43,933 nucleotides of DNA from Bacteroidaceae bacterium (GTDB taxonomy: Bacteria > Bacteroidota > Bacteroidia > Bacteroidales > Bacteroidaceae). A program made the position numbers and the translations under genes. Location: NCBI GenBank assembly GCA_017464815.1, contig JAFTYI010000028.1:1-43933 (forward strand). The letters are read 5' to 3'. The notes beneath the pieces were generated by a model. The model did not search any database, was not told where the DNA came from, and saw nothing but the letters and a program-made list of their open reading frames with translations. This document shows positions 25,838-41,058 of this stretch, in pieces (position 1 is the first letter of the stretch; each line of letters begins with the position of its first letter).

Positions 25838-25972
25838 GACCCTCCCCCTTACCCCTCCCTCTATGGAGGGGAGTGAATAGTCCGCCATCTTAAAAACATT
25901 ATGAGCAAAAAACATCATCATAGTCGAAACATTCTACTCCCCTCCATAGAGGGAGGGGTAAGGGGGAGGGTC
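25838..25972. repeat. 37-bp perfect inverted repeat around the M16 start codon
   Basis: 25838-25874 is the exact reverse complement of 25936-25972 (core ACTCCCCTCCATAGAGGG then AGGGGGAGGGTC). The 61-base loop between them holds the M16 ATG at 25901. The right arm is translated as codons 12-24 of the protease. The same family occurs at 34423-34730 and 40944-41058. Confidence 0.9.
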
Positions 25973-28768
25973 TTCCTCTTCTCCCTCTTCCTCCTTTTCC
26001 TCCCCCTCCTCACCTTTGCACAGCCCCTCCCGATGGACACGGCGGTGCGTTATGGCCGGTTGGACAATGGGCTCACCTATTACATCTGCCCCAACGCAAA
26101 GCCGGAGGGACAGGCGGAGTTCTACATTGTGCAGCGCGTAGGTTCCATTCTTGAAGAGGAGGAGCAGCGCGGATTGGCCCATTTTCTCGAGCACATGGCC
26201 TTCAACGGCACGAAGCACTTCCCCGGCAAACGGCTGATTGAGTATCTCGAGGAGAACGGCGTGCGCTTCGGCACCGACATCAATGCCTACACGGCGTTTG
26301 ACCAGACGGTCTATAACCTCTCCCGCGTGCCGACCCACCGCGATGGGTTGGTGGATTCGTGCTTGCTGATACTGCGCGACTGGAGTGGCGACATCACCCT
26401 CGACGGCAAGGAGATTGATGCCGAGCGAAAGGTCATCCACGAGGAGTGGCGCACCAAGACGGGCGCTCGCGAACGCATCTACGCACAGACGCTTCCCAAA
26501 CTCTTCCCCGACGGCAACCGCTATGCCCACCGTATGCCCATCGGCCTGATGGAGGTGGTGATGAATTTCCCCCATAAGGCACTCCGCGACTACTACCACC
26601 GCTGGTACCGCCCCGACCTGCAGGCCATCATCGTGGCCGGCGACGTGGAGGCCGACCATGTGGAGGAGCAGATAAAACGCCTCTGGGCAAACCTTCCTTT
26701 GAAAAAAGACGCGCCCGAACGGACTTACTTCACCGTGCCGGACAACGCCTCGCCCATCGTGGCCATCGGCACCGACCCCGAACTCACCTCGGGCACCCTG
26801 CGCATCAGCTACAAGTACGATGTGCCGACTCCTGAAGTCACACTGAGCAAGGCAGGACAGAAGGAGGCTCTATGCCGCAACCTGATTATCTCCCTACTCA
26901 GCAATCGGATGATGGACCAAGCCCAAGAGAGCGGCCAACATGCCAACCTTTCTTTTTTCGATGGAGACTACTCCATCTCAGGCACAAAAGATGCCTTCTC
27001 GGCCACGGCCACCTTCAGAGAAGCGGAATGGAAACCTGCCATGCGGGCATTGGTATTCCAACTCAAGCGGGTCATGGAGCATGGATTCACCGCCGAAGAG
27101 TACGAGCGCGTATGCAACCAATTGCGCCAGGCGATGATGCAAAGCAATGCTCCCGGCTATGCCGTTCCTCATAACAACACATTGGTGCAGAAGTGCATCG
27201 CCCACTTCCTCCACCATCGCCCTTTGCTCTCGCAAGCCGAAGAGGTGAAGCTCTACAACGAATTGTTGGCGGACATCACAGTGGCCGACCTCAACGCCCG
27301 ATTCAACCAGTTCGTCTATAGCCGCGGCGGTGTGGCCATCCTCCTGCAAGGTCAAGAGCGCGACGGCCACCAATGGCCGACAGAGAGTGAGGTGTTGCAA
27401 GCCTACGGCGAAGGATGGTCACAAGAGACCACCCCCTATCGCATCCCCGAGACGGAGCCTGCGCCCGAGCTGATGCCCGTGAAACCCACGCCTGGCCACA
27501 TTGTAAAGGAGAAAGAGAACAAGGCATACGCCACCCGCGAACTCCTCCTCAGCAACGGGGCGCGGGTGATACTGAAACCCACCGAATCCACCGACGGCAT
27601 CCTGCAACTGACCGCCATCAGCCACGGTGGTACTTCATTAATTGACGATGCCGAGTTTGCCAATATCCATGCTATCAATGCCCTACCTGTCATGGGCGGA
27701 TTAGCCCACCTGTCAGGACGGCAGTTGGGCCGTGCCTTAGAGGGGTCGAGCGCTTCGTATCAGACCAACGTGGGTACCCTCACCGAAACCTTCAGCGGCG
27801 GTTGCCTGAAGGCTGACACCGAAGACCTCTTGCAACTGCTCTACTTGCGCTTCACCACCGTGTATCGCGACACCACGGCCTTCCGCCGTTGGCAACAGGG
27901 TACACGGCAGAATATCAACCAACACATTGCCAATCCTCTGACGCTTTTCAGCGACACATTGCAAAACACCCTCTACGAGCCACATCCGCGCAACCGCAAG
28001 GCATCCATGGCCTTGGCCGATAGCGTGGATTACGACCGCACGTGTGCCCTCTTCCTCGAACGCTTTGCCAACGCGGCCGACTTCACCTTCATCTTTGTCG
28101 GCAGCATGGACATCGACTCCCTCCGCCCGCTCCTGTGCCAATATGTCGCCTCGTTGCCCGGCAATCCAAATAAAAAGGAAAAGGCCGACCTCAGCGCCCT
28201 GCCCCGCCTGCGTCGCGGACAGCACGTCACCCGCGTGGCCGTGCCGATGGAGAACCCCGTCACCACGGTCATCTACCAGGTGCTAGCCAAGGAGCGCTAC
28301 ACCGCCCGCAACAACGTGGCCTGCGCCATCCTCAGTGAAGTGATGAACAGCCTCTGCACCGAGACGTTGCGCGAACAGGAGGGCGGCACCTACAACGTCA
28401 GCGTCACCTCGCGCATCTCGCGCCAACCGGCCGACGAACTGACGCTGATGTTCAACTTCAACACCAACCCCCAGCAGGCACAATCTCTGCTGCAACGGGC
28501 CATCGCCCTGCTCCGTCAGGTGGCCAACGAAGGCCCGTCCGCCGAAGCCTTCAACAAGGCCAAGGAGTATCTGCAGAAGCAACACGCCTCTTATCGCGGC
28601 ACCGATGCCTTCTGGATGGCGGCACTGACCGAACGCGTGCGCTACGCCTCCGACGACATGCTGACCAACAGCGAAACTCTGCAACAGGTGACTCCCAAGG
28701 AGGTGCAACGCCTCGCCCGCAAGCTCATCCGCTCAAAGAATACGGCCGAGGTGGTGATGAATCCGTAA
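25901..28768 (+). CDS. M16 family zinc metalloprotease (PqqL-like, two-lobed)
   Basis: A 955-residue exported zinc protease in the insulinase/pitrilysin clan. The inverted zinc motif HFLEH is at residues 94-98, and the third ligand is a Glu at about 175, exactly 76 residues after the last His, as in pitrilysin. A second, inactive M16 lobe follows (about 550-955). This full-length form resembles E. coli PqqL/FusC, which degrade proteins imported by TonB-dependent receptors. The first 25 residues come from a dispersed repeat. The following hydrophobic run (VFLFSLFLLFLPLLTFAQP) gives a signal peptide. Position after SusCD and two lipoproteins suggests it cuts the imported ligand. Confidence 0.9.
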   Translation: MSKKHHHSRNILLPSIEGGVRGRVFLFSLFLLFLPLLTFAQPLPMDTAVRYGRLDNGLTYYICPNAKPEGQAEFYIVQRVGSILEEEEQRGLAHFLEHMAFNGTKHFPGKRLIEYLEENGVRFGTDINAYTAFDQTVYNLSRVPTHRDGLVDSCLLILRDWSGDITLDGKEIDAERKVIHEEWRTKTGARERIYAQTLPKLFPDGNRYAHRMPIGLMEVVMNFPHKALRDYYHRWYRPDLQAIIVAGDVEADHVEEQIKRLWANLPLKKDAPERTYFTVPDNASPIVAIGTDPELTSGTLRISYKYDVPTPEVTLSKAGQKEALCRNLIISLLSNRMMDQAQESGQHANLSFFDGDYSISGTKDAFSATATFREAEWKPAMRALVFQLKRVMEHGFTAEEYERVCNQLRQAMMQSNAPGYAVPHNNTLVQKCIAHFLHHRPLLSQAEEVKLYNELLADITVADLNARFNQFVYSRGGVAILLQGQERDGHQWPTESEVLQAYGEGWSQETTPYRIPETEPAPELMPVKPTPGHIVKEKENKAYATRELLLSNGARVILKPTESTDGILQLTAISHGGTSLIDDAEFANIHAINALPVMGGLAHLSGRQLGRALEGSSASYQTNVGTLTETFSGGCLKADTEDLLQLLYLRFTTVYRDTTAFRRWQQGTRQNINQHIANPLTLFSDTLQNTLYEPHPRNRKASMALADSVDYDRTCALFLERFANAADFTFIFVGSMDIDSLRPLLCQYVASLPGNPNKKEKADLSALPRLRRGQHVTRVAVPMENPVTTVIYQVLAKERYTARNNVACAILSEVMNSLCTETLREQEGGTYNVSVTSRISRQPADELTLMFNFNTNPQQAQSLLQRAIALLRQVANEGPSAEAFNKAKEYLQKQHASYRGTDAFWMAALTERVRYASDDMLTNSETLQQVTPKEVQRLARKLIRSKNTAEVVMNP

Positions 28769-28812
28769 CATTCACACACATTCATTAAATCTATTGTTAC
28801 TGCCAACGGGGA

Positions 28813-28884
28813 TGGCAGACGTCTGCCATTACCGTGGCAGAGTGCTGCCATTAGCTTGGCAGAGTACTGCCATCATATTGGCAG
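28813..28884. repeat. array of 16-bp palindromes with 22-bp period
   Basis: TGGCAGACGTCTGCCA at 28813, TGGCAGAGTGCTGCCA at 28835, TGGCAGAGTACTGCCA at 28857 and a half unit TGGCAG at 28879 start exactly 22 bases apart with 6-base spacers. The first is a perfect palindrome. They follow the M16 stop codon by 45 bases. Confidence 0.8.
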
Positions 28885-28928
28885 GCGACATTCATCAGTA
28901 AGACAGCTCTGAATAATATAATTGTTTT

Positions 28929-29006
28929 TAGGCACGGATTACACGGACTCCACGGATAGAAATAAAAGATGTATAAAATCCGTGTAATCCGTGCAATCCG
29001 TGCCTG
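28929..29006. repeat. dispersed inverted repeat, copy B (GGCACGGATTACACGG family)
   Basis: Arms GGCACGGATTACACGGA and its near reverse complement TAATCCGTGCAATCCGTGCC flank about 25 bases. This is the same family as 1822-1906 and 38995-39069. It lies just upstream of the displaced SLC13 fragment, as copy C lies beside the intact gene end. Confidence 0.8.
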
Positions 29007-29023
29007 AATTTACTCGCTTAATA

Positions 29024-29124
29024 CTTAATACGGGAAAAGCAAGGGAAGAGCGAATATCATCACCACAGCCATGATGAGCTGGAGGGGCAGACCCACCTTG
29101 ACGTAATCCATGAAGGTGTATTGT
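29024..29124 (-). pseudogene. displaced 3' fragment of the SLC13 permease gene (direct repeat, left)
   Basis: 101 bases match 39082-39182 at all but one position (A for G in the GGGAAAAGC stretch). They encode, on the minus strand, the last 33 residues of the permease, ending in VMIFALPLLFPY and the stop codon, with only a synonymous change. No other part of the gene is present. It marks the left edge of the efflux cassette. Confidence 0.9.
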
Positions 29125-29171
29125 GTCCGCCCTTGCACGCTAAAAGTGGACAGTGTGTCCATTTTCGGACA
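29124..29171. promoter_or_regulatory. TGTCC/GGACA half-site cluster, likely activator binding region
   Basis: Half-sites TGTCC (29124), GGACA (29148), TGTCC (29156) and GGACA (29167) are spread over 48 bases. They include TGGACAGTGTGTCCA and TGTCCATTTTCGGACA as overlapping palindromes. They lie 46-93 bases upstream of the -24/-12 promoter, where enhancer-binding proteins normally act. I propose they bind the response regulator encoded at 36272. Confidence 0.5.
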
Positions 29172-29216
29172 GTGGAAGTTTTTAAGTTTCTCCTATAAAT
29201 CAAGCAGTTGCATGTT

Positions 29217-29232
29217 TGGCACAGAAATTGTT
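29217..29232 (+). promoter_or_regulatory. sigma-54 (-24/-12) promoter of the efflux operon
   Basis: TGGCAC (29217-29222), five bases, then TTGTT (29228-29232). The GG and TG dinucleotides are 12 bases apart, the exact spacing of sigma-54 promoters; the only notable departure is T for C at -12. Transcription would start near 29243, 26 bases before the adaptor ATG. A sigma-54 activator is encoded in the same cassette. Confidence 0.7.
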
Positions 29233-29268
29233 TCCTAATATGGCAAGAAAACAAAACTTAAAAAGAAT

Positions 29269-30519
29269 ATGGACAGAGAAATCCCCAAAGAAGAGAGAAG
29301 AAAGCGCCTACGCCGTCGGGTGCTTGTCGGAGCGGGCATCGTGGCCGTGGGCTTTGCCGCCGTAATGGGTCTGACCCGTTGGGCACAAAGCGGCGTGCAG
29401 ATGGCCGACCTGAAGACGAGCACCGTGGAGCGCGGAGCCATCGAAGTGAGTGTGGCCGCCGTGGGACGCGTGGTGCCTGCGGCCGAAGAGCTGATGACCT
29501 CGCCCATCACCTCGCGCATCGTGGAGGTCTATTGCAAAGAGGGCGACAGCGTGGCGGCCGGCACCCCCATCCTGCGGCTCGACCTGCAGAGCACCGAGAC
29601 CAGCTACCGCAAACTGTTGGACGAGGAGCAGATGAAGCACTACCAACTGGAGCAGCTGCGGCTGAACAACCTGACGCGGCTGAGCGACCTGCAAATGAAC
29701 ATCCGCGTGAGCGAAATGAAGCTGAACCGCCTGGAGGTGGAGCTGCGCAACGAACGCTACCTCGACAGCCTTGGCTCGGGCACCACCGACAAGGTGCGTC
29801 AGGCGGAGCTGGCCTACAACACGGGCTGCCTGGAGCTGGAGCAACTGCGCCAACAGTACACCAACGAGCAACAGGTGCGCCAGGCCGACCTGAAGGTGAA
29901 GGAGCTGGAGCTGGAAATCTTCCGAAAGAACTTGGCTGAGACACGGCGCACACTGGAGGAGGCACAGATACGCGCACCACGGGCGGGCATCCTCACCTAT
30001 ATAAACAGTCAGATAGGCACACAGGTGTCGCAGGGCAGCCAAGTGGCTACGCTCTCCGACCTTTCGAACTTCAAACTGGAAGTGGAGATGGCCGATGCCT
30101 ACGCCGACCGTGTGCGGGTGGGAGCCAAAGCCGTCATCCGCATCGGCGCGGACGAACTGGAGGGACGGGTGACGAGCATCACCCCCTTGTCGAAAGATGG
30201 CATCATCAGCTTTGTGGTGCATCCGCTCGACCCGCGCCACCGCCGCCTGCGCTCGGGACTGAATGCCGACGTGCATGTGGTGGGCAGCGTGAAGGACAAC
30301 GCCCTGCGCATTGCCAACGGCTCCTACTACCTCGGCAGCGGACAGACGCAGCTCTTCGTCCTCTCACCTGACGGACAGACGCTCAACCGCCGCACCGTCC
30401 GACTGGGCGAAAGCAGCTACCAGTATGTGGAGGTCGTCGAAGGTCTCAACCCCGGTGAACAGGTGGTCATCAGCGACATGGCGCGGTGGAAGGAGTATGA
30501 GAAATTGAAGGTGGAATAA
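29269..30519 (+). CDS. HlyD/MacA-family efflux periplasmic adaptor
   Basis: A 416-residue membrane-fusion protein that links an inner-membrane ABC pump to an outer-membrane channel. One membrane helix lies at about residues 18-36 after a basic end (RRKRLRRR). The lipoyl-type half-motifs are around SPITSRIVEVYCKEGDSVAAGTPILRLD and RAPRAGILTYINSQIGTQVSQGSQVATLS, flanking a long coiled coil of about 110 residues. A beta-barrel and membrane-proximal domain end in LNPGEQVVISDM. The permeases, ATPase and TolC-like gene follow on the same strand. It is the first gene after the sigma-54 promoter. Confidence 0.92.
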   Translation: MDREIPKEERRKRLRRRVLVGAGIVAVGFAAVMGLTRWAQSGVQMADLKTSTVERGAIEVSVAAVGRVVPAAEELMTSPITSRIVEVYCKEGDSVAAGTPILRLDLQSTETSYRKLLDEEQMKHYQLEQLRLNNLTRLSDLQMNIRVSEMKLNRLEVELRNERYLDSLGSGTTDKVRQAELAYNTGCLELEQLRQQYTNEQQVRQADLKVKELELEIFRKNLAETRRTLEEAQIRAPRAGILTYINSQIGTQVSQGSQVATLSDLSNFKLEVEMADAYADRVRVGAKAVIRIGADELEGRVTSITPLSKDGIISFVVHPLDPRHRRLRSGLNADVHVVGSVKDNALRIANGSYYLGSGQTQLFVLSPDGQTLNRRTVRLGESSYQYVEVVEGLNPGEQVVISDMARWKEYEKLKVE

Positions 30520-30535
30520 ATCCTTAGAAGATAAA

Positions 30536-30674
30536 GGAGTTAAAGGAGTTATCGGCTCTTCGAGCCTAAGGAGTTAATGCCAAATGTAGAGCAAAACTAT
30601 CGGCTTTAACTCCTAACGAAGTGAAGCGAAGTGATAACTCCTAAGCCCAAAGGGCTGATAACTCCTTTAACTCC
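30536..30674. repeat. GGAGTTA palindromic repeat, copy 1
   Basis: Outer arms GGAGTTAAAGGAGTTATC (30536-30553) and GATAACTCCTTTAACTCC (30657-30674) pair over 18 bases. Inside are small hairpins (GGCTC-TTC-GAGCC and AGCCC-AAA-GGGCT) and more GGAGTTA/TAACTCC pairs, giving a cloverleaf-like fold. A second copy lies at 33572-33707. Confidence 0.85.
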
Positions 30675-30703
30675 CCAATAATAAAATTTAAACCAACAAC
30701 AAT

Positions 30704-32005
30704 ATGTTCAAAATCTATCTAAGACAAGCATGGAACCTGGTGAAGCAGAACAAGCTCTTCACCTCCATCTACGTGATTGGCACAGGACTGGCCATCGCGC
30801 TGACGATGATACTCTTCATCGTCCATTACATCAAGTTCGCACCCGTCTATCCCGAAGAGAATCGGGGGGAGACGCTGGTGATAAGACGACTGACCCTCCG
30901 CTACAACGACGATCAGGGGATGTATCAAAGTAATTGTTGCTCGCCCTACTTGGGAAAGTACCTGAAGGAACAAACCCGGGCAGAAGCGGTGGCGGTATTC
31001 AGCCCCAACACCGGCAAGTCCCCGGTGGGTATCGGCAAGCCCGGAGAAGCCAACCAACTGAGGGGTATCGTCAAATTGGTAAATGCCGACTTCTGGAAAC
31101 TCTTCACGTTTCAATTTATCAACGGAAAACCCTTTACGGAGGTAGATGTGGACTCCAAGCAACAGGTGGCAGTGATACAGGAGGAGATTGCCCTGCAACT
31201 GTTCGGCCGCACGGACGTGACAGGCGAACGCATTCAAGCGGAAGGCCAAGATGTGAAGATTGTAGGCGTAGTGAAGAACAGTTCTGTGGCCACTCCTGAC
31301 TCCTATGCCGCAGTATGGATTCCCATCTCGCTCGACAACAAGTATTCCACCGAGATGAAGAGAGCCGAACTGTTAGGTCGCTATCAGGTATATCTGAAAG
31401 CGACGAGCGGAAGCGAAAAAGAGATTCTGAAACAAGAGGTCATCGAAGCCTTCCGCAAATACGACGCCGACCATCCCGATGGAATCCATGAACTGAAGGG
31501 GCAACCCGTGGAGGACTGGCTCAGCTACTACCAACACGACAAGGAGGTATCCGTCAAGGAGGTTGTGTTGGAACTGCTCTACCTGCTGTTGGCCCTGCTC
31601 TTCATCCCGGCGCTGAACCTGAGCGGCATGATATCATCGCGCATGGATCAGCGGCAAGTGGAGATAGGCGTGCGCAAAGCATACGGTGCTTCCAACTGGT
31701 CCATCCTCCGGCAGGTGTTGGGCGAAAACCTAGCCCTCACCGTGGCCGGCGGCATTGTGGGACTGCTCATTGCCTACCTGATTATCGCCACGTGCAGTCA
31801 GTGGATTCTCTCCCTGTTCGATAACAGAGACCTCTATTCCTTTGCCGAAATCAGTCCGCGCATCACCCCTGAGATGCTCTTCAGCCCGTGGATTATCGGT
31901 TGCGCCTTTGGTGCCTGCCTGTTGCTGAATATCATCTCGGCACTCATCCCCACCGTGTGGGCGCTCCGGCATTCAATCATAGAGTCATTGCATAGCAAGT
32001 TATGA
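30704..32005 (+). CDS. ABC transporter permease (MacB/FtsX type), first
   Basis: A 433-residue permease with the MacB/FtsX plan: an N-terminal membrane helix (about 17-40), a large periplasmic domain of about 250 residues, then three membrane helices near the C-terminus (about 285-310, 340-365 and 400-425). The FtsX-type block ISSRMDQRQVEIGVRKAYGASNWSILRQVLGENL is the ATPase-coupling segment. It belongs to the tripartite pump with the adaptor, a second permease and the ATPase. It is separated from the adaptor by 184 bases filled by a palindromic repeat. The substrate is unknown; such pumps export peptides, lipids or antimicrobials. Confidence 0.9.
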   Translation: MFKIYLRQAWNLVKQNKLFTSIYVIGTGLAIALTMILFIVHYIKFAPVYPEENRGETLVIRRLTLRYNDDQGMYQSNCCSPYLGKYLKEQTRAEAVAVFSPNTGKSPVGIGKPGEANQLRGIVKLVNADFWKLFTFQFINGKPFTEVDVDSKQQVAVIQEEIALQLFGRTDVTGERIQAEGQDVKIVGVVKNSSVATPDSYAAVWIPISLDNKYSTEMKRAELLGRYQVYLKATSGSEKEILKQEVIEAFRKYDADHPDGIHELKGQPVEDWLSYYQHDKEVSVKEVVLELLYLLLALLFIPALNLSGMISSRMDQRQVEIGVRKAYGASNWSILRQVLGENLALTVAGGIVGLLIAYLIIATCSQWILSLFDNRDLYSFAEISPRITPEMLFSPWIIGCAFGACLLLNIISALIPTVWALRHSIIESLHSKL

Positions 32006-32030
32006 AACCTCTCTGTCATCCAATATGCCA

Positions 32031-32190
32031 TCTCTGTCATCCTGACCATACCTTACCCAAAAGAATCAAAGAGGTTTTCGATGAGCCTTTGGCGAATAAC
32101 AGCAGTGAAGGATCTGAAAACGTCAGCAAAAGAAATGAAAGGAGACCGTCAGCACACGCTCCCAGATCCTTCACTACGTTCAGGATGACA
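32031..32190. repeat. nested inverted repeat, TGTCATCCTGA / AGTGAAGGATCTG family
   Basis: AGTGAAGGATCTG (32104-32116) pairs exactly with CAGATCCTTCACT (32163-32175). Outside it, TGTCATCCTGA (32035-32045) pairs with TCAGGATGACA (32180-32190). The 248-base gap between the two permease genes is largely made of this element. A single related arm is at 34537-34558. Confidence 0.8.
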
Positions 32191-32253
32191 AGAGACCGTA
32201 AAAGCAAGAGAGTGCAAGAGTAATAATAAACAACAACAAAAACATTACCCGAT

Positions 32254-33564
32254 ATGATAAAAATGATTTTCAAACAACTGTGGAACCAGCGGCGACAAAA
32301 CGGCTGGATTCTGCTGGAACTGATTGTTATCGCGTTTTTCCTCTTCACCACATCGGCCGAGGTCGTGAGAGCCACTGCCAACTACGTGCTCCCCGACGGC
32401 TACGAGAAAGAGAAGTCTTACTTCATTGAACTGAAAGAAGGCAGCAAGTTCAGGTACGCCCGCCGGGAACGCGAGATACGCGACTCCATCTTCCAGAGCC
32501 ACTTCCGCCAACTGTTGCTCACCATCAAGCAATCTCCCGAAGTGGAGGCCGTAGCCATCGTGCGCGGAGACTCTTACCCGGGTGCCCTTTCGAGCAACGG
32601 CAACGGTTTTGTAAGCGACGACACGGCATGTGTCCGCATCAAATGTCCATGGTATCAAACCTTTGTCATCGATGGAACAACCGACTTCCTGAAAGTCTAT
32701 GGCCTGAAGGATGCCCGCACAGGCGAACCACTACAACTGGCAAAAGCAAAATTGGCATGTCCGCAAGGCATCGTGTCAGTCGCCTTTGCCCGCCAGCTGT
32801 TCGGGCGGACAGACGTGACAGGCGAAAAGGTTCACTTCGGCAAAAAGCTGCCCGAAGGTTCGGATGCGAACAACTATTTCGAAATCGTCGGAGTATATGA
32901 GGGCTACAAGCGTAGCAACTTCCATGTTCCGGGAAACAATCTTTTCGTGCTCACCAGCACCATTCGAGGCAGGAACGAATTCAACCACGTCATCGCCTAT
33001 CGCCTGAAAGAGGGGGTGGACGGCAACGCCTTCCGCGAACGGATTATGAGCGAAATCGCACCTCACTATGAGACCACGCCTACAGCCATCAAAGACATCA
33101 AAAGTTTCGGGGAAAGTCTGAAGCGGTTCAATGACCTGGCGGGTGCCTATTCCCGCTACCGCTACACCGCCGTGATGGCCTTCTTCGTGCTGCTCTGTGT
33201 CTTCCTCGGTATGACGGGAACGTTCTGGGTGCGCTGTCGGGCACGCCGACAAGAGATTGGGCTGATGCGCAGCATCGGAGCCTCGCAAGCCACCATCACC
33301 CGCCAGTTTATGACGGAGGCGTGGATGCTGGTCACCATCGGTGTTCTCATTGCCCAACCGCTCATCATCCACTACATCCACGAACTGGAGTGGGACATCA
33401 CCGACCCCACCGCCCACTATTGGCAGGACAGCAAAACGTGGATTACCCTCGCCACCGACGGCCTCATCTACATCCTGATGGTGCTGATTGCCCTGCTCGG
33501 CACATGGCTCCCCGTGAAACAGGCGGCCAAGGACCTGCCGGCGGAGGCGCTGAGGGATGAGTAA
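32254..33564 (+). CDS. ABC transporter permease (MacB/FtsX type), second
   Basis: A 436-residue permease with the same plan as its upstream neighbour: a first helix at about 18-38, a periplasmic domain, and three C-terminal helices (about 308-328, 355-375 and 405-430). The coupling block is RCRARRQEIGLMRSIGASQATITRQFMTEAWM. Both permeases carry the same periplasmic motif (QLFGRTDVTGE), so they arose by an ancient duplication and probably pair as a heterodimer. The next gene encodes the ATPase. An ATG at 32263 is a possible alternative start. Confidence 0.9.
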   Translation: MIKMIFKQLWNQRRQNGWILLELIVIAFFLFTTSAEVVRATANYVLPDGYEKEKSYFIELKEGSKFRYARREREIRDSIFQSHFRQLLLTIKQSPEVEAVAIVRGDSYPGALSSNGNGFVSDDTACVRIKCPWYQTFVIDGTTDFLKVYGLKDARTGEPLQLAKAKLACPQGIVSVAFARQLFGRTDVTGEKVHFGKKLPEGSDANNYFEIVGVYEGYKRSNFHVPGNNLFVLTSTIRGRNEFNHVIAYRLKEGVDGNAFRERIMSEIAPHYETTPTAIKDIKSFGESLKRFNDLAGAYSRYRYTAVMAFFVLLCVFLGMTGTFWVRCRARRQEIGLMRSIGASQATITRQFMTEAWMLVTIGVLIAQPLIIHYIHELEWDITDPTAHYWQDSKTWITLATDGLIYILMVLIALLGTWLPVKQAAKDLPAEALRDE

Positions 33565-33571
33565 TTTTTTA

Positions 33572-33707
33572 AGGAGTTAAAGGAGTTAGAGGAGTTAAAA
33601 GGAGTTAGCGCAGGCTCTGCCTGCTAGCCAATAGTTTTGCTATACAATTGGCTTTAACTCCTAACGAAGTGATAACTCCAAGCGAAGCGATAACTCCTTT
33701 AACTCCT
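33572..33707. repeat. GGAGTTA palindromic repeat, copy 2
   Basis: AGGAGTTAAAGGAGTTA (33572-33588) pairs with TAACTCCTTTAACTCCT (33691-33707) over 17 bases. Inside are further GGAGTTA/TAACTCC units and the sequence AATAGTTTTGCTATACAATTG, similar to the middle of copy 1. Confidence 0.85.
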
Positions 33708-33750
33708 GAGAGCAAACAACCAATTATAAACTAACAAAAAACAAGATAAT

Positions 33751-34422
33751 ATGTCAATAATCAAACTTACCGGTATCAACAAGATATACCGCACCGACGA
33801 GATAGAAACTCAGGCACTGGAAAATGTGAACCTGGAAGTAGAGAAAGGCGAATTCCTCAGCATCATGGGGCCTTCGGGATGTGGCAAATCGACATTGCTC
33901 AACATCATCGGCCTGCTGGACAAAGCCACAAGCGGCACCATCGAGCTGTGTGGCACCGAGGCCATGACGCTGAAGGACAAGGAGCTGGCCGAGTTCCGCA
34001 ACCAGCGGTTGGGATTCATCTTCCAATCGTTCCACTTGGTGAACTCGCTGAACGTCATCGACAACGTGGAGCTGCCCTTGCTCTACCGCAACGTGTCGGC
34101 AAGCGAACGCACACGGCTGGCCAAAGAGGTGCTCGAGCGCGTGGGGCTGAGCCACCGCATGCGCCACATGCCCATGCAACTCTCCGGCGGACAATGCCAG
34201 CGCGTGGCCATCGCCCGTGCCCTTATCGGCAACCCGGACATCATCCTGGCCGACGAGCCGACGGGTAACCTCGATTCAAAGATGGGTGCCGAAGTGATGG
34301 ACCTGCTGCGCCAACTGAACCGCGAAGACGGCCGCACCATCGTCATGGTGACTCACAACGAAGAGCAGGCACGCACCACCTCGCGCACCATCCGCTTCTT
34401 CGACGGAAGACAGGTGGAATGA
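33751..34422 (+). CDS. ABC transporter ATPase (LolD/MacB type)
   Basis: A 223-residue ATPase with Walker [10 protein letters not shown] (about 41-49), Q-loop [12 protein letters not shown], signature [15 protein letters not shown], Walker [13 protein letters not shown] and switch His in MVTHNEEQA. The length and the [13 protein letters not shown] block are typical of the LolD/MacB type that pairs with FtsX-like permeases. It powers the two upstream permeases. The stop codon is followed at once by the left arm of the repeat pair that ends in the TolC-like gene's first codons. Confidence 0.93.
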
Positions 34423-34730
34423 GAAGACCCTCCCCCTACCCCTCCCTCTATGGAGGGGAGTGAACACCATCCAACGAGGTTGTATCAAAATGCCGACGGT
34501 CTCTGTCATTTTTCGGGCAAAGCCCTTAACAACTCGTCTGAACGCAGTGAAGAATCTGTAAACACATTCATTTCACTAAATACTTTTATTTCTTCGCTCG
34601 TTCGGATGAGGACAGAGGCCGTCAAGAAGTATATTATTCCCACACTTATTATATTATGAACAAAAAGCATCATCACAGTCGAAACATTCTACTCCCCTCC
34701 ATAGAGGGAGGGGTAAGGGGGAGGGTCTTC
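34423..34730. repeat. inverted repeat pair around the TolC-like gene start
   Basis: 34423-34461 (GAAGACCCTCCCCCTACCCC start) is the reverse complement of 34691-34730 apart from one deleted base. The left arm begins right after the ATPase stop codon; the right arm lies inside codons 12-25 of the TolC-like gene. Confidence 0.88.
34537..34558. repeat. single arm of the GTCATTCTGAACGCAGTGAAGAATCTG family
   Basis: TCTGAACGCAGTGAAGAATC and the following bases resemble the arm at 32163-32190 read in reverse (GGATGACA, AACGTAGTGAAGGATCTG). Only one arm is present here, in the gap between the ATPase and TolC-like genes. Confidence 0.55.
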
Positions 34731-36209
34731 TTCCTACTCCTCTGCCTGCTCGCCTGCACGGCATTGACAGGACGGGCACAAGGAGACGCGTCCCACCCGC
34801 GCCCCATCACCCTTGAAGAGGCCATTCTGACGGCACGCACACAGAGCGTGGATGCGGCCGTGGCACTGAACGAGCTGAAGACGGCCTACTGGGAATACCG
34901 CACCCACCGCGCCGACCTGTTGCCTGAGATGAGCCTGTCGGCCTCGCTGCCCAGCTACAACAAGCGCTACAACTCGTATCAGCAGGAGGACGGCTCCTAC
35001 ACCTTCGTGCGCAACAACTACCTCGGCATGAACGGCGCACTGGCCATCAACCAGAAGATTTGGCCCACGGGCGGAACACTCTCGCTGCAAACGTCGCTCG
35101 ACTACATGAAGCAACTGACGGGCGACCGCACGGAGCGCTACATGTCGGTGCCCGTGGCGCTGCAACTGAGCCAACCCATCTTCGGCGTGAACAGCGTGAA
35201 GTGGGACCGCCGCATCGAACCCGTGCGCTACGCCGAAGCCAAGGCGGCCTTCCTCAGTGCCACCGAGGAGGTGACGATGAGCACCATCAACTACTTCTTC
35301 AACCTCCTTCTCGCACGCGAAAACGTGAGCATCGCCCGCCAGAACCTCGACAATGCCCGCAAGCTGCACGAGGTGGCCAAGGCCAAACGCCGCATGGGGC
35401 AGATAAGCGAAAACGACCTGCTGCAACTGGAGCTGAATGTGCTGAACGCCCAATCGGCCCTCACCGAGAATGAAAGCACGATGAAGAGCCACATGTTCAA
35501 ACTCCGCTCCTTCCTCGGATGGAACGAGCAGGAGGAACTGGAGCCGGTGTTGCCCGACACCATCCCCGGCACGTTGCTGGAGTATAACCAAGTGCTACAG
35601 AAGGCGTTGGAGAACAACTCCTTCGTGCACAACATCCGCCGTCGCCAACTGGAGGCCGACTATCAAGTGGCCAAGGCACGGGGCAACCGACGACAGATAA
35701 CCCTCTTTGCACAGGTGGGCTACACGGGCACCGACCGCACGATGGATGGAGCCTACGACCGTCTGTTGGACAACCAGGTGGTGGAGGTGGGCTTCAACAT
35801 CCCGCTCGTTGATTGGGGCAAGCGCCGCGGACAGGTGAAGGTGGCCGAGAGCAACCGCGAAGTGACAGCCAGCCGACTCCGGCAGGAGAGCATGAACTTC
35901 AATCAGAACCTCTTCATCCTGGTGGAGCAGTACAACAACCAACGCGCCCAGCTCGACATTGCACGCGAGGCCGACCGCATCGCCCAACGCCGCTACCACA
36001 CCAACGTGGAGACCTTCCTCATCGGCCGCATCAGCACCCTCGACCTCAACGATGCACAAGTGAGCAAGGACGAGGCACGACAGAAGCACATCACCGAACT
36101 GTTCTACTATTGGTACTACTACTACCAGCTCCGCAGCCTCACCCTCTGGGACTTCGACAAGCAGACGGGCATCGATGCCGACTTTGAAGCGATAGTGAAG
36201 GGAAGGTAA
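34656..36209 (+). CDS. TolC-family outer-membrane efflux channel
   Basis: A 517-residue outer-membrane channel completing the tripartite pump. The repeat-encoded N-terminus (residues 1-25, HHHSRNILLPSIEGGVRGRV) is followed by a hydrophobic core FFLLLCLLACTALTGRAQG, which looks like the rest of a signal peptide. The TolC fold is seen as two related halves with coiled-coil helices: NELKTAYWEYRTHRADLLPEMSL, NLDNARKLHEVAKAKRRMGQI, and later QYNNQRAQLDIAREADRIAQRR and TFLIGRISTLDLNDAQVSKDEA. It directly precedes the two-component pair, which has its own promoter. Confidence 0.9.
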   Translation: MNKKHHHSRNILLPSIEGGVRGRVFFLLLCLLACTALTGRAQGDASHPRPITLEEAILTARTQSVDAAVALNELKTAYWEYRTHRADLLPEMSLSASLPSYNKRYNSYQQEDGSYTFVRNNYLGMNGALAINQKIWPTGGTLSLQTSLDYMKQLTGDRTERYMSVPVALQLSQPIFGVNSVKWDRRIEPVRYAEAKAAFLSATEEVTMSTINYFFNLLLARENVSIARQNLDNARKLHEVAKAKRRMGQISENDLLQLELNVLNAQSALTENESTMKSHMFKLRSFLGWNEQEELEPVLPDTIPGTLLEYNQVLQKALENNSFVHNIRRRQLEADYQVAKARGNRRQITLFAQVGYTGTDRTMDGAYDRLLDNQVVEVGFNIPLVDWGKRRGQVKVAESNREVTASRLRQESMNFNQNLFILVEQYNNQRAQLDIAREADRIAQRRYHTNVETFLIGRISTLDLNDAQVSKDEARQKHITELFYYWYYYYQLRSLTLWDFDKQTGIDADFEAIVKGR

Positions 36210-36231
36210 AAGCATCTTTTCCCGCCTTTTG

Positions 36232-36263
36232 TTTGGAAATATAAAAAAGATAAGATACTTTTG
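36232..36263 (+). promoter_or_regulatory. promoter of the sigma-54 activator gene
   Basis: TTTG (36232-36235), 20 bases, TACTTTTG (36256-36263). The ATG at 36272 is only 8 bases after the -7 element, so the transcript would be nearly leaderless. Confidence 0.65.
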
Positions 36264-36271
36264 CACCACTT

Positions 36272-37639
36272 ATGATACTAATAATTGACGATGACCAAAG
36301 CATACGCTCGTCGCTGGGTTTCATGCTGAAGCGGGCGGGACACGAGGTGACGGCCGTGAGCACTCCCAAGGAAGCACTGGAAGTGATAAGGGAGACTGCG
36401 CCCCGACTGATGCTGATGGACATGAACTTCTCGCTCGCCACCGACGGGGAGGAGGGATTGACGCTGCTCCGCCAGGTGAAACTCTTCTGTCCGCAAGTGC
36501 CGGTCATCCTGATGACGGCGTGGGGAAGCATCCAATTGGCTGTGAAGGGAATGCAGGCGGGCGCCTTCGACTTCGTCACCAAGCCGTGGAACAACGTAGC
36601 GCTGATGCAACGCATCGAAACGGCACTCGAGCTGACCGAAGGAAAGACTTCTGACCATACGGCAGAGACGGATGACGGAGAGTTTGACCGCAGCCACATC
36701 ATCGGCCGCAGCGAGGGACTGATGAAGGTCTTAGAAATGGCAAAACGCATTGCCCACACCAACGCCTCGGTGCTCATCACCGGCGAGAGCGGAACGGGCA
36801 AGGAGCTGATAGCGGAAGCCATACACCGCAACAGCCCGCGACGGGGGAAGCCCTTCGTTAAGGTGAACTTGGGCGGCATCTCGCAATCGTTGTTCGAAAG
36901 CGAGATGTTCGGACACAAGAAGGGGGCCTTCACCGGTGCCGTGAACGACCGCGCAGGACGCTTCGAAACGGCGGACAAGGGCACCATCTTTCTCGACGAA
37001 ATAGGCGAACTGGACCTGAGTTGCCAAGTGAAGATGCTGCGCGTGCTGCAGGAGCAGACCTTCGAACGGTTGGGCGAGAGCACACCGCGCAAGACGGACA
37101 TCCGCGTGGTGAGCGCCACCAATGCCGACCTACCACAAATGGTGCGCGAAGGGACTTTCCGCGAAGACCTCTTTTACCGCATCAACCTCATCACCGTACA
37201 CCTGCCAGCCCTGCGCGAACGGCGCGACGACATCCCCCTGCTGGTGCGCCACTTCATCGACCAACAATGCCGGCTGAACGGACTGCCACCGGTAAGTGTC
37301 ACTCCCGAAGCGATGCAGTACCTGCGCACACTGCCCTACCCCGGAAACATACGCGAACTGAAGAATCTGGTGGAGCGCACCCTGTTAGTGAGCGGAAGCG
37401 AGGAACTGACGGCCGACGACTTCAAGGCCATGCACTCCCTCTCGGGTCAATCGGAAGCGACCCCGACAACCACCCCACCCCCCACCGAAGGGCTGACACT
37501 GGACGAAATAGAGAAACAGGCCATCCTACAAGCCATCAGCCGCTACCGGGGTAACCTCTCGCTCGTGGCCGTGGAGCTGGGCATCAGTCGCGGAGCACTC
37601 TACCGCCGACTGGAGAAGTATGGAATTGAGACTACATAA
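36272..37639 (+). CDS. sigma-54-dependent response regulator (NtrC type)
   Basis: A 455-residue transcription activator. The receiver domain (1-120) has the acidic pocket (DDD at 6-8), the phosphorylated Asp50 in LMLMDMNFS and Lys104. The AAA+ domain has Walker A GESGTGKE (171-178), the sigma-54-contacting loop GAFTGA (218-223) and Walker B GTIFLDEIGEL (about 237-247). A Fis-type helix-turn-helix ends the protein (LSLVAVELGISRGALYRRLEKYG). An intact GAFTGA means it should activate sigma-54 promoters such as the one before the adaptor gene. Its own promoter is of the housekeeping type, and it is followed 29 bases later by its kinase. Confidence 0.95.
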   Translation: MILIIDDDQSIRSSLGFMLKRAGHEVTAVSTPKEALEVIRETAPRLMLMDMNFSLATDGEEGLTLLRQVKLFCPQVPVILMTAWGSIQLAVKGMQAGAFDFVTKPWNNVALMQRIETALELTEGKTSDHTAETDDGEFDRSHIIGRSEGLMKVLEMAKRIAHTNASVLITGESGTGKELIAEAIHRNSPRRGKPFVKVNLGGISQSLFESEMFGHKKGAFTGAVNDRAGRFETADKGTIFLDEIGELDLSCQVKMLRVLQEQTFERLGESTPRKTDIRVVSATNADLPQMVREGTFREDLFYRINLITVHLPALRERRDDIPLLVRHFIDQQCRLNGLPPVSVTPEAMQYLRTLPYPGNIRELKNLVERTLLVSGSEELTADDFKAMHSLSGQSEATPTTTPPPTEGLTLDEIEKQAILQAISRYRGNLSLVAVELGISRGALYRRLEKYGIETT

Positions 37640-37668
37640 CCAAACTCATAATTAATAATTCCCCGTCC

Positions 37669-38976
37669 ATGCTTTCCTTCAAACGAATGTTCATCCTGTT
37701 GGCAATGCTGCTGATTGTCGTTGCCATCCTGCTGGGTCTGCTGTCAATAGATGAGCGGGGCCTGTTGTTCTATGTCGCCGAAGCCACGGTGGCCATCACG
37801 CTGGTGGGTCTGTACTACTTCTACCAAAAGGTGGTGAAGCCTGTCTATATGCTGACTGACGGATTGGACCTGTTGCGCGAACAGGACTTCAGCAGCCGGC
37901 TCAAGCGCGTGGGCCAACGGGAAACGGACCAGATTATCGACACCTTTAACCGCATGTTGGAACAACTGAAGAACGAGCGGTTGCGCGTGAGGGAGCAGAA
38001 CCACTTCTTGGACCTGCTCATCAGCGTGTCGCCCATGGGAGTGGTGTTGCAGGACTTCGACGGCCACATCACCGACATGAATCCGGCCGCCCAACGTTTC
38101 ATGGGACTGGCATCGGCCGAGGAAATCAAAGGGAAACAATTCAAGGAAATAGAGACACCGCTATCGGCCGAGATTGCAGCCATCCCACGAGGCGACACAC
38201 GCACGGTACGACTGAGCGATTCGATGGTCTATCGCCTGTCGCATCTGTCGTTCGTCGACCGGGGATTCCCCCACCCGTTCATTCTGATTGAGAGCCTGAC
38301 CAACGAGGTAATGAAGGCCGAGAAGAAAGCCTACGAGAAGGTCATCCGCATGATAGCCCACGAGGTGAACAACAGCGTGGCGGGCATCACCTCCACCCTC
38401 GACACCGTAAGCCAGGCATTGGCCGAGATGGACGACACTACGGAGCTGCGCGAAGTGATGGCCGTCTGCGTGGAGCGCTGCTACAGCATGAGTAACTTCA
38501 TCACCCGCTTTGCCGACGTGGTGAAGATTCCCGAGCCACAACTGCAGGAGGTTGACCTGAACACACTGGTACAGAACAACCTCCGCATCCTGGAAGGACT
38601 CTGCCTGCCACAGGACATCCGCCTCGGCCTGCAACTCAGTCCCACTCCGTTGCCGGTGAAGATTGACACACCGCTCTTTGCACAGGTGTTGCAGAACATC
38701 ATAAAGAATGCCGTCGAAAGCATCGGACACGATGGAGGGAAAATCACCCTCACCACCACATCGTCGCCCTACACCGCCATCGAGATAGCCGACAACGGAC
38801 GGGGCATCAACCGCGAAACAGAGCAGAAACTCTTCACCCCCTTCTTCTCCACCAAACCCGACGGGCAGGGCATCGGCCTCATCTTCATCCGCGAAGTGCT
38901 GCTGAAGCATGGCTGCACCTTCTCCCTCCGCACTTGGCCCGACGGCCTCACCCGCTTCCGCATTGAGTGGAAGTGA
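37669..38976 (+). CDS. sensor histidine kinase (NtrB/AtoS-like)
   Basis: A 435-residue inner-membrane kinase, probably the partner of the upstream regulator. Two membrane helices (about 6-26 and 32-52) are joined by about five residues, so no external sensor domain exists. A HAMP-like segment (about 55-110) and a PAS-like domain (about 112-210) follow. The phospho-accepting His231 is in RMIAHEVNNSVAGI, and the ATPase domain has NAVES, DNGRGI and FSTKPDGQGIGL boxes. It may sense membrane stress or an intracellular cue. The gene ends 18 bases before repeat copy C. Confidence 0.92.
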   Translation: MLSFKRMFILLAMLLIVVAILLGLLSIDERGLLFYVAEATVAITLVGLYYFYQKVVKPVYMLTDGLDLLREQDFSSRLKRVGQRETDQIIDTFNRMLEQLKNERLRVREQNHFLDLLISVSPMGVVLQDFDGHITDMNPAAQRFMGLASAEEIKGKQFKEIETPLSAEIAAIPRGDTRTVRLSDSMVYRLSHLSFVDRGFPHPFILIESLTNEVMKAEKKAYEKVIRMIAHEVNNSVAGITSTLDTVSQALAEMDDTTELREVMAVCVERCYSMSNFITRFADVVKIPEPQLQEVDLNTLVQNNLRILEGLCLPQDIRLGLQLSPTPLPVKIDTPLFAQVLQNIIKNAVESIGHDGGKITLTTTSSPYTAIEIADNGRGINRETEQKLFTPFFSTKPDGQGIGLIFIREVLLKHGCTFSLRTWPDGLTRFRIEWK

Positions 38977-38994
38977 GAGACCAAAGCCCATATA

Positions 38995-39069
38995 TTTAGG
39001 CGCGGATTGCGCGGATTACACGGATAGTTTATGTATAAAACCGTGTAATCCGCGCAATCCGCGCCTAAA
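38995..39069. repeat. dispersed inverted repeat, copy C (29-bp perfect arms)
   Basis: Arms 38995-39023 and 39041-39069 pair perfectly over 29 bases around a 17-base loop; the outer part reads TTTAGGCGCGGATTGCGCGG. Compared with copies A and B, GGCACGG has become GGCGCGG in both arms, so the change is compensated. It lies between convergent kinase and permease genes and may terminate both. Confidence 0.88.
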
Positions 39070-39081
39070 ACTTAACTGTCC

Positions 39082-39182
39082 CTTAATACGGGAAGAGCAA
39101 GGGAAGAGCGAATATCATCACCACAGCCATGATGAGCTGGAGGGGCAGACCCACCTTGACGTAATCCATGAAGGTGTATTGT
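39082..39182. repeat. 101-bp direct repeat, right copy (SLC13 3' end)
   Basis: This stretch is repeated at 29024-29124 in the same orientation with one mismatch. It covers the last 33 codons and stop codon of the permease gene, plus one base. Recombination between the two would remove 10,058 bp and keep the permease gene intact. Confidence 0.9.
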
Positions 39183-41002
39183 CCGGCAGGCATCACCAAG
39201 GCGTTGGGCGGTGTGCTGAAAGGCGAAGCAAAGCACATGCTGGCGGCCACGGCCACAGCGAACAGGAAGGGATAGGGACTGACACCTATCTGCACGGCCG
39301 ATGCCATGGCAATGGGCGACATCAGTACGGCGGTGGCGGTGTTGCTGATAAACATAGTCATGAGCGAGGTGGTGAAGTAGATGCCTGCCAACAGGGCAGT
39401 GGGACCATAGGCACCAAGTCCGCTGACGAGACTGCTGGAAAGGTAGTCGCTGACACCGGTCTTCTCCAATGCCAAGGACATGGGCATCATGGCGGCAATG
39501 AGGACGATGCTTTCCCAATTGATGGTCTTGTAAGCGGCTTCGACATTGCGGAAACATCCGGTGAGCACCATCAGCAAGCCGGCTATCATCACGGCCGTGA
39601 CGGGAGCCACGGGGATGAAGTCGAACATCATCATGGCAATCATCATCACCATGATAACGGCGGCCAAGGGAGCCTTGTAGTCGAGCGTCACCTTGGCGGC
39701 TTCGGCCAAGGGCTGACCCAGTACCACCCAATCCTCGTCCTCCTGACTGAGGCGGGCAATGCTTGCCCATGTGCCTTGCACGAGCAACACGTCGCCGGAG
39801 TGCATGCGCACATCCTTGAGGCCGTGTATCATATATTCTCCCTTACGACGGATGCCCACCACGTTGATGTTGTACTTCTGGCGGAAGTTGGAGTCAATGA
39901 GGGTATTATTTATCAGTTTGCTGGCAGGCATAAGCACGATTTCGGCCATACCGATGTCGTAGAAGTCGAGGACACTGCGTCCGCCCTGTTCCTTCAGCGA
40001 GGCATCGTCAAGCAGGGTGAGCTTGTATTCGCCGGCAAAGCGTTCGGCCTTCTCACGGGCACCCATCAGGTAGAGGATATCTCCTGCTTCCAAGGGTGTG
40101 GAGGGGTCGGCCATACTTTGGCTCACGTTCTTCACCAGTTTGCTGCGACGACCTTGTCCCTCGCGGCGTATCTCAAAGATGGTAACTCCGAAACGGCGGT
40201 GCACGTCCAGCTCGGCGGCGGTCTTTCCTACCAAGGCCGATCCGCTCTTCACTTGCAGACGGCTGAGGTTGGAGGCTAACTGGTACTCATCCACCAGTTC
40301 GTTAAGCGACTTGCTCTTGCGTCCGCCCACATTCTCCTTCTTTTTCTTACCCGAAAGGAACCACTTGGTAAGCGGGAGCAGCACCAGGGTGCCCACTACC
40401 ACACACACCAATCCCACGGGAGTGAAGGAGAAGAAACCCAACGGCTCGTACCCAGCCGAGGTAAGCGACTCCTGTATCACGAGGTTGGGCGGTGTACCGA
40501 TGAGGGTCATCATACCTCCCATACTGCTGGCAAAGGCCAAGGGCATGAGCAAGCGGCTGACGTTGGCTCCGGCTCCGGCGGCCATGCTGACCACGATGGG
40601 GAGCATCAGGGCAACCGTGCCCGTGTTGCTCACAAAAGCACCAATGGCGGCCGTGCCAATCATCACCAACAGGAAAAGGCGGAGTTCGCTCTTGCCGGCC
40701 AACTTCAGCAGGCTACCACCGATGATTTTGGCAAGACCCGTCTGGAAGATGGCACCACCTACGACAAACAGTCCCACCATCATGATGACCGTGGAGTTGG
40801 AAAAGCCCGACAGTGCCTCAGCAGGAGTCAGGATATTGAATACAAGAAGTAGCACCAATGCTATCAGTGCTACCATGTCGGAACGCATCCGTCCGCTTAC
40901 AAAGCCCACGACGGAGAGGGCAAGGATGAGGAGGACTATAAGAGAAGACCCTCCCCCAAACCCCTCCCAAGGGAGGGGAGTAGATAGTAAGAGATTCATC
41001 AT
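39083..41002 (-). CDS. SLC13-family permease with two TrkA-C (RCK_C) domains
   Basis: A 639-residue inner-membrane permease of the divalent anion:sodium symporter superfamily. N-terminal helices (about 20-200) include the LTPAEALSGFSNSTVIMMVGLFVV and IGTPPNLVI blocks. A cytoplasmic insert (about 235-420) contains two RCK_C domains that could bind a regulatory ligand, and C-terminal helices hold SNTATAVLMSPIA. Likely substrates are sulfate or dicarboxylates; the family does not decide. The first 19 residues (MMNLLLSTPLPWEGFGGGS) come from the GGAGGGG repeat and replace the usual short start. It is downstream of the acyl-CoA ligase gene on the same strand. Confidence 0.9.
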   Translation of the reverse strand: MMNLLLSTPLPWEGFGGGSSLIVLLILALSVVGFVSGRMRSDMVALIALVLLLVFNILTPAEALSGFSNSTVIMMVGLFVVGGAIFQTGLAKIIGGSLLKLAGKSELRLFLLVMIGTAAIGAFVSNTGTVALMLPIVVSMAAGAGANVSRLLMPLAFASSMGGMMTLIGTPPNLVIQESLTSAGYEPLGFFSFTPVGLVCVVVGTLVLLPLTKWFLSGKKKKENVGGRKSKSLNELVDEYQLASNLSRLQVKSGSALVGKTAAELDVHRRFGVTIFEIRREGQGRRSKLVKNVSQSMADPSTPLEAGDILYLMGAREKAERFAGEYKLTLLDDASLKEQGGRSVLDFYDIGMAEIVLMPASKLINNTLIDSNFRQKYNINVVGIRRKGEYMIHGLKDVRMHSGDVLLVQGTWASIARLSQEDEDWVVLGQPLAEAAKVTLDYKAPLAAVIMVMMIAMMMFDFIPVAPVTAVMIAGLLMVLTGCFRNVEAAYKTINWESIVLIAAMMPMSLALEKTGVSDYLSSSLVSGLGAYGPTALLAGIYFTTSLMTMFISNTATAVLMSPIAMASAVQIGVSPYPFLFAVAVAASMCFASPFSTPPNALVMPAGQYTFMDYVKVGLPLQLIMAVVMIFALPLLFPY

Positions 41003-41058
41003 TATATTACTTTGTCATTTTACTCCCTTCCATATAGGGAGGGGCAAGGGGGAGGGTC
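40944..41058. repeat. inverted repeat pair around the SLC13 gene start
   Basis: 40944-40981 (ending AAGGGAGGGGAGT) and 41022-41058 (starting ACTCCCTTCC, ending GGGGGAGGGTC) pair imperfectly over a 40-base loop containing the permease ATG. The first arm is translated in the permease gene; the second begins 11 bases after the ligase stop codon. Confidence 0.85.

Follow-up and report, generated by a model that had tools for sequence, protein, structure and literature searches.

The DNA stretch analysed here (the window) comprises 43,933 nucleotides (nt) of contig JAFTYI010000028.1 from a Bacteroidaceae genome, and it carries genes for an M16 peptidase, a TolC-like outer membrane channel and a permease of the SLC13/DASS type whose N-termini lie in copies of a palindromic repeat (Table 1). 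At each of the three genes the repeat forms a doublet, in which two GC-rich palindromic arms, inverted and facing each other, surround an AT-rich interior; the start codon lies in the interior and the outer arm is translated. The preliminary description of this sequence had recognised the translated repeat at these genes, and this part stands, although it had seen single arms where each gene actually has a doublet. It is likely, judging from the sequences and their comparison, that such doublets replace the native starts of unrelated genes, an event that can be called start-codon capture.

Table 1. Repeat doublets of the window and the genes that begin in them (window positions; evidence or remarks in the last column).
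Feature	Positions	Strand	Evidence or remarks
Left arm, doublet 1	25838..25881	+	GACCCTCCCCC-TTA-CCCCTCC-loop-GGAGGGG-AGTGAATAGT; sequence
AT-rich interior, doublet 1, with M16 start codon at 25901	25882..25936	+	leader MSKKHHHSRNIL
Right (outward) arm, doublet 1	25937..25972	+	read as LPSIEGGVRGRV
M16 peptidase, 955 amino acids; N-terminus from doublet 1	25901..28768	+	Pfam; orthologues
Left arm, doublet 2	34426..34464	+	sequence
Interior, doublet 2, about 230 nt, with TolC start codon at 34656	34465..34691	+	sequence
Right (outward) arm, doublet 2	34692..34727	+	read as LPSIEGGVRGRV
TolC-like outer membrane channel, 517 amino acids; N-terminus from doublet 2	34656..36209	+	NCBIfam TolC E 1.5e-30, below curated cut-off; orthologues
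Upstream arm, doublet 3, diverged core	41023..41058	-	sequence
AT-rich interior, doublet 3, with SLC13 start codon at 41002	40983..41022	-	sequence
Outward arm, doublet 3, CCAAGG loop type	40947..40982	-	read as STPLPWEGFGGGS
SLC13/DASS-type permease, 639 amino acids; N-terminus from doublet 3	39083..41002	-	NCBIfam DASS E 6.5e-47, below curated cut-off; orthologues

As had been described earlier, the first 75 bases of the M16 and TolC genes differ only at bases 5, 12 and 21, two of the three differences being synonymous, and both encode SRNILLPSIEGGVRGRV, while the SLC13 open reading frame reads a related arm in another frame. Besides the arm, the M16 and TolC genes have in common a 36-nt leader that includes the start codon and is identical at 33 of 36 positions; when the M16 leader was compared with 261 leaders, the next best reached 22/36 and the median was 12. 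Since the two genes are unrelated and their leaders nearly identical, it is most simply explained by the copying of one segment, made up of start codon, leader and arm, from one place to the other.

Each arm runs from GACCC(T/A)CCCCC through a short spacer and a 7-bp GC hairpin to a AGTAGATAGT-like stretch. With up to three mismatches the repeat has 49 matches in this 2.63 Mb genome (79% complete) and the reversed pattern used as a control has none, so the repeat is not due to chance. In the stretches examined from this genome, 19 facing doublets account for 38 of 57 arms, and three more close pairs are of other kinds. The gaps within doublets range from 25 to 231 nt, and the interiors have a mean AT content of 73%, compared to 48.5% for the window (GC 51.5%); judged by eye, they seem unrelated from copy to copy. 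The predicted RNA folds of the doublets are strong: -93.3 kcal/mol (z -13.1) for M16, where the left and right arms pair and the start codon lies in the apical part, -66.9 kcal/mol (z -6.8) for SLC13 and -149 kcal/mol (z -13.4) for TolC. Part of the last fold comes from a second inverted repeat nested within the interior of the TolC doublet (34465-34691), GACGGTCTCTGTC ... GACAGAGGCCGTC. The repeat is a dispersed, probably non-autonomous element. At two loci (L103 and L204) the end of the arm has grown into short tandem units, read as GGSAGAA-type repeats.

Orthologues from other genomes of the genus indicate what the starts were like in the absence of the repeat. None of the 12 full-length SLC13 orthologues has the doublet, and they start with ATG or GTG level, or nearly so, with the outer end of the arm (MLTTLIILALS and similar). 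Among the five close M16 orthologues (64-79% identity), three (L025, L026 and L027) have a doublet whose interior holds an ATG and whose arm is in frame; in the two that are without it the protein starts with MRTFLLTLLFFPLLTFAQ or MRISFLSLLFVLF. The arms of the M16 orthologues read LPSIEGGVRGRV, LPSIQGGARGWV or LPSLGRGKGEGP with the frame open in each, and the valine at the arm end aligns with the methionine of the orthologue from G007. For TolC, all four close orthologues are fused to the arm; in two of these the arm has a different loop type, shorter by 3 nt, and the frame is kept. All five orthologues at 59-62% identity are without the doublet.

Two cytosolic genes, named from their Pfam matches, served as a check. 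In SufC the arm was present in 3 of 13 orthologues, the other 10 beginning with M-L-[EK]-I-[KR]-DLHA at the arm end, and in LeuC it was present in 2 of 14, with a third having a different repeat at that position. One of the two arm-bearing LeuC copies reads AGT-AAG-TCT beside the arm in place of the native ATG-AAA-AGT (MKSLFDK). As the orthologues without the doublet begin level with the outer arm end or beside it, where the native start has disappeared, the native starts of SLC13, M16, TolC, SufC and LeuC are, on this comparison, replaced rather than merely extended. The earlier proposal that the repeat supplies the start codon and the first residues, with the family-conserved part directly after it, thus gains support from orthologues that lack the repeat and start at that point; the same residues were not seen without the repeat in orthologues within the genus, distant genera not having been searched for these three genes. 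Other repeats were found in the same spacers: a CTTTAACTCC repeat fills the SLC13 spacer in some relatives and a AGCTACGAGTAACGAG repeat the M16 spacer in G007, so that the two spacers host differing repeat families.

A pattern scan of the genome collection gave at least 115 stretches, and all 115 loci were read. Among the 80 titles listed, 78 were Prevotella, Prevotellaceae, Bacteroidaceae or Bacteroidales, the remaining two being others. Among the matches listed, the arm-bearing stretches were mostly from ruminant-gut assemblies and one was from a cultured strain, Xylanibacter brevis ATCC 19188, in which the arm faces no codirectional gene. The exact arm occurs in 25 of 399 genomes and in 6 of the 30 genera of the family. 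After identical contexts had been removed there were 263 outward arms: 133 without a codirectional gene, 53 in a leader with an AUG behind the arm, 38 N-terminal fusions, 27 in frames open for more than 300 nt upstream, 10 too short and 2 other. Six of 118 rows were omitted (two in L004 and L172 whose arms were shifted or duplicates, three from the multiply repeated locus L204, and the non-Bacteroidota L130), and five (L022, L129, L138, L236 and L112) were re-filed as fused, having been misplaced by a Met inside the signal core or by a long open upstream frame. Counted by family, with SufC and LolD-like ATPases clustered as one, 27 were fused at the N-terminus, 37 had the arm in the 5' leader and 19 were long-open, from a total of 79 families. 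The fused families number 26 once L190:6587 is removed, in which the arm is translated right after the presumed lipoprotein cysteine, in the mature part and behind the protein's own signal peptide, and which was counted as a cytosolic fusion.

The fused families include GldK/PorK, outer membrane efflux channels, lipoproteins, FtsX-like permeases and an ABC-2 permease, and also LpxA, the acetolactate synthase small subunit, aminopeptidase P, LeuC, SufC, a GyrB-like topoisomerase and a radical SAM protein whose Pfam domain begins at the first residue past the arm. In the long-open class, arms lie in frame inside CbiD, peptidase U32, GH92, RecG and a class I tRNA synthetase; these cases were selected by their open frame, so that out-of-frame internal copies would escape, and the class also holds some N-terminal or leader cases (L124, L145 and L113). 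The reading frame of a TolC-like channel continues upstream through the arm for about 3.3 kb at L124 (~3740) and L145 (~4386), which looks like a junction with the preceding gene. Runs of permease genes, each with its own translated N-terminal arm, occur at L172 and L175; of two L172 proteins that were scanned, one matched FtsX.

The preliminary description had limited the fusions to exported or membrane proteins, a pattern that arose because the six recognised fused genes of this genome are all secreted or membrane proteins. This limit does not hold across the wider sample, where SufC, LeuC, LpxA, the acetolactate synthase small subunit, the GyrB-like topoisomerase and the radical SAM protein are also fused. 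An excess of secreted proteins was detected in its place. The secreted class was defined by a hydrophobic core with few other membrane segments, and by this rule the ratio of fused to leader families was 11/2 for secreted compared to 11/29 for cytosolic proteins (Fisher p = 6.6e-4). In curation, L112, L138 and L247 were set to secreted, and an NqrC-like single anchor and an AcrB-like fragment, both leader cases that are secreted by rule, were moved to the polytopic class. The 27 curated fused families comprise 14 secreted, 5 polytopic and 8 cytosolic, giving 14/0 versus 8/29 (p = 2.5e-7). Setting against the pattern the protein of L173, a lipoprotein by eye and cytosolic by rule, gave 14/1 versus 8/28 (p = 3e-6), and removing L190:6587 as well gave 14/1 versus 7/28 (p = 1.5e-6). 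The net positive charge of the arm peptide was higher in secreted fusions after curation (p = 2.5e-4); charge as the sole rule was set aside and kept as a trend.

Bacteroidota appear to be without functional Shine-Dalgarno pairing, and on the proposed mechanism their ribosomes would depend on a leader that is AT-rich and free of structure. We computed local folding over positions -35 to +5, and the interior AUGs of the fused genes had a median of -1.6 kcal/mol with an AT fraction of 0.74 (36 of 38 rows), compared to -0.8 kcal/mol and 0.74 for window genes without an arm (13 of 16; p = 0.17). At the arm end of the same fused genes, set 16 nt past the core, the value was -16.8 kcal/mol, and AUGs of the leader class past their arms had -4.5 kcal/mol (all 53 rows, before re-filing). 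In a study on Prevotella bryantii, structure in the initiation region of -5.2 kcal/mol left 12% of reporter and -11.1 kcal/mol left 0.7%, and a hairpin of -9 kcal/mol at -21 was harmless (PMC3155529). The distance from the end of the left arm core to the interior AUG is 27 nt in M16 and 20 nt in SLC13. The weak folding and high AT content of the interior, together with the strong fold at the arm end, suggest that the interior is a normal-looking initiation region and that a native start directly past the arm should work badly.

The anatomy of the doublets, the interior start codons, the frames open through the arm, the lost native starts and the excess of secreted proteins are read directly from the sequences and their comparison. 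From them we infer initiation at the interior AUG, a block imposed by the arm, the order of events and the mechanism of mobility; capture could proceed as follows. Many copies adjoin gene starts, and where an outer arm comes to lie at a native start codon its GC-rich structure should block initiation, and the unstructured AT-rich interior, similar to an ordinary Bacteroidota initiation region, would offer a new AUG. If this AUG is in frame, ribosomes would read across the arm and on into the gene, and the native start codon could be lost afterwards or be destroyed by the insertion itself. Chance in-frame AUGs that are open through the arm, observed in 46 of 399 frames at arms facing no codirectional gene, may be enough to seed such captures. 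Secreted proteins would tolerate them most, as the added residues would serve as a basic n-region ahead of the hydrophobic core and should be cleaved off along with the signal peptide, at a cost that is expected to be low.

Other explanations must be weighed against start-codon capture. The doublet could be mainly an element of transcription or mRNA stability, a terminator or a means of holding the start codon in a hairpin loop, with a neutral coding overlap. The strong fold of the M16 doublet with its apical start codon fits this, as does the position of several left arm cores 32-49 nt past the stop codon of the preceding gene. When 16 kb were scanned for terminators, 13 sites were detected compared to 16.4 in shuffles, thus no excess, and 3 of the 13 touch arms, which speaks neither for nor against such a role. 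As this explanation leaves both the arms inside genes and the excess of secreted fusions unexplained, we consider it unlikely. It could also be that the fusions are frames read too far upstream, with the arm in an untranslated leader and initiation downstream at a non-standard or overlooked codon, and the 37 family entries with the arm in the leader and an AUG 2-40 nt behind it do have this arrangement. In the window genes, however, the first in-frame ATG, GTG or TTG lies 60, 36 and 37 nt past the arm, inside or behind the hydrophobic core, the frames remain open through changing arms, and arms are also in frame inside the CbiD, peptidase U32, RecG and tRNA synthetase genes, which were found by open-frame selection. 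We regard over-read frames as very improbable.

A further alternative is that the interior AUG is itself the native start and that one arm entered the tolerant n-region a few codons after it, with no swap of starts. The interior 5' regions resemble ordinary leaders and the interiors vary between copies, as native spacers would, and for TolC the conserved core alone does not separate the two readings. In SufC, LeuC and SLC13, however, the position of the native start falls on the outer arm end or past it, and the codon there is mutated; in M16 the arm-end valine aligns with the G007 methionine, and the M16 and TolC leaders are near-copies, unlike two independent native leaders. We consider a native interior start unlikely to account for the fusions.

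Several observations weigh against start-codon capture itself. In the leader class some of the AUGs are 5 nt or less past the arm, which indicates that a nearby arm is not always fatal to a native start, and three families occur in both the fused and the leader class. One of the three arm-bearing SufC genes (G003) has an extra in-frame ATG 2 nt past the arm, making its start ambiguous. Since in-frame AUGs are this often open through arms facing no codirectional gene, an individual case carries little weight. Families were sorted into classes by our own script, which used neither a gene caller nor SignalP, with rows re-filed by hand, and by rule alone the difference in charge between secreted and cytosolic arms had p = 0.056. 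Nearly all genomes are metagenome assemblies, and the evidence is of sequence and comparison. In addition, neither a target-site duplication nor a mobiliser was found in the material examined, where sites empty of the doublet have diverged or are occupied by other families of repeats.

Two candidates for mobility found no support. A REP-associated tyrosine transposase (RAYT) was searched for as mobiliser with PF01797 in this genome and the genus, and no arm-flanked Y1_Tnp was found. The sole Y1_Tnp match of this genome, a 347-codon frame (L023), has no arm in its 3252-base locus and other-type tandem repeats on both sides. Y1_Tnp was present in 5 of 15 genomes of the genus and was not found in the arm-rich G002, G003, G004, G006 and G009, which are 65-91% complete. 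An autonomous parent was looked for in G001, where an arm pair lies 1.4 kb apart, and nothing transposase-like was recognised in its open reading frames. Rfam gave 14 matches, all below the gathering score, 13 to microRNA models and one to a long non-coding RNA model. In the open-access literature no paper on this repeat was found and five peptide strings gave no match; passages of a paper on Porphyromonas repeats (PMC5771137) do not mention it.

The window holds further repeats. Another dispersed repeat with TTTAACTCCTAACGAAGTGA (D7), similar to the CTTTAACTCC repeat of the SLC13 spacer, lies at 30579-30624 and 33627-33672, and direct repeats of 101 nt, 99% identical, at 29024-29124 and 39082-39182 adjoin a third dispersed family with AATCCGTGTAATCCGTGC units (D1, D5 and D6).

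Start codons are usually treated as fixed and inherited, and here repeat DNA seems to replace them repeatedly, in genes that include those for SufC, LeuC, a GyrB-like topoisomerase, GldK/PorK and TolC. If this is true, odd annotated N-termini in these bacteria would be explained, and the captured starts would be a natural test of how Bacteroidota ribosomes choose a start without Shine-Dalgarno pairing. They would also be a route for mobile DNA into protein, one that does little harm, since secreted proteins should shed the extra residues by cleavage. More tentatively, and as a possibility that we would not yet call probable, the doublet could be regarded as a portable start, with an AT-rich interior that serves as a preformed Bacteroidota initiation region and an outward arm that serves as a preformed basic n-region. 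Each insertion next to a gene start could then silence the previous start and substitute its own, so that in a group of gut bacteria the start codons of secreted proteins, and of some essential ones, would pass step by step to mobile DNA; the shared leader of M16 and TolC would be a start caught in transit between genes.

The repeat resembles several known systems in part, and we assign it to none of REPINs, RPE or MITEs. With miniature inverted-repeat transposable elements (MITEs) it has in common that it is short, apparently non-autonomous, scattered between genes and bounded by inverted repeats; it differs in that no target-site duplication or parent transposon has been established here and in that the interiors look unrelated between copies by eye. 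REPINs consist of two palindromic arms, inverted and facing, in many copies per genome (PMC6006769), and the 19 facing doublets and 49 genome matches observed here are similar. However, the copies are not confined to extragenic DNA, as 38 of 263 arms are fused and 27 of 263 lie in long open frames. The enterobacterial RU-1, RU-2 and RU-3 are likewise mobile repeats of small size, and their open frames can be fused to those of genes. In contrast to their few predicted signal or membrane segments, the present repeat has 14 secreted families (curated), loss of the native start in sets of orthologues and a rationale in initiation. Rickettsia palindromic elements (RPE) are dispersed, about 150 bp long and translated in frame inside unrelated proteins (PMC10969869), and here too a palindromic repeat appears with open frames in unrelated Pfam families. 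The RPE family has hosts in Rickettsiales, whereas the hosts here are Bacteroidota apart from two odd titles among the matches listed, and the present repeat has two separate GC-rich arms that face an AT-rich interior. The commonest coding outcome also differs, being an internal insert in RPE and a new start codon with a new N-terminus in our sample. The doublet would be a variant among the protein-coding mobile repeats, one whose recurrent outcome is a replaced translation start.

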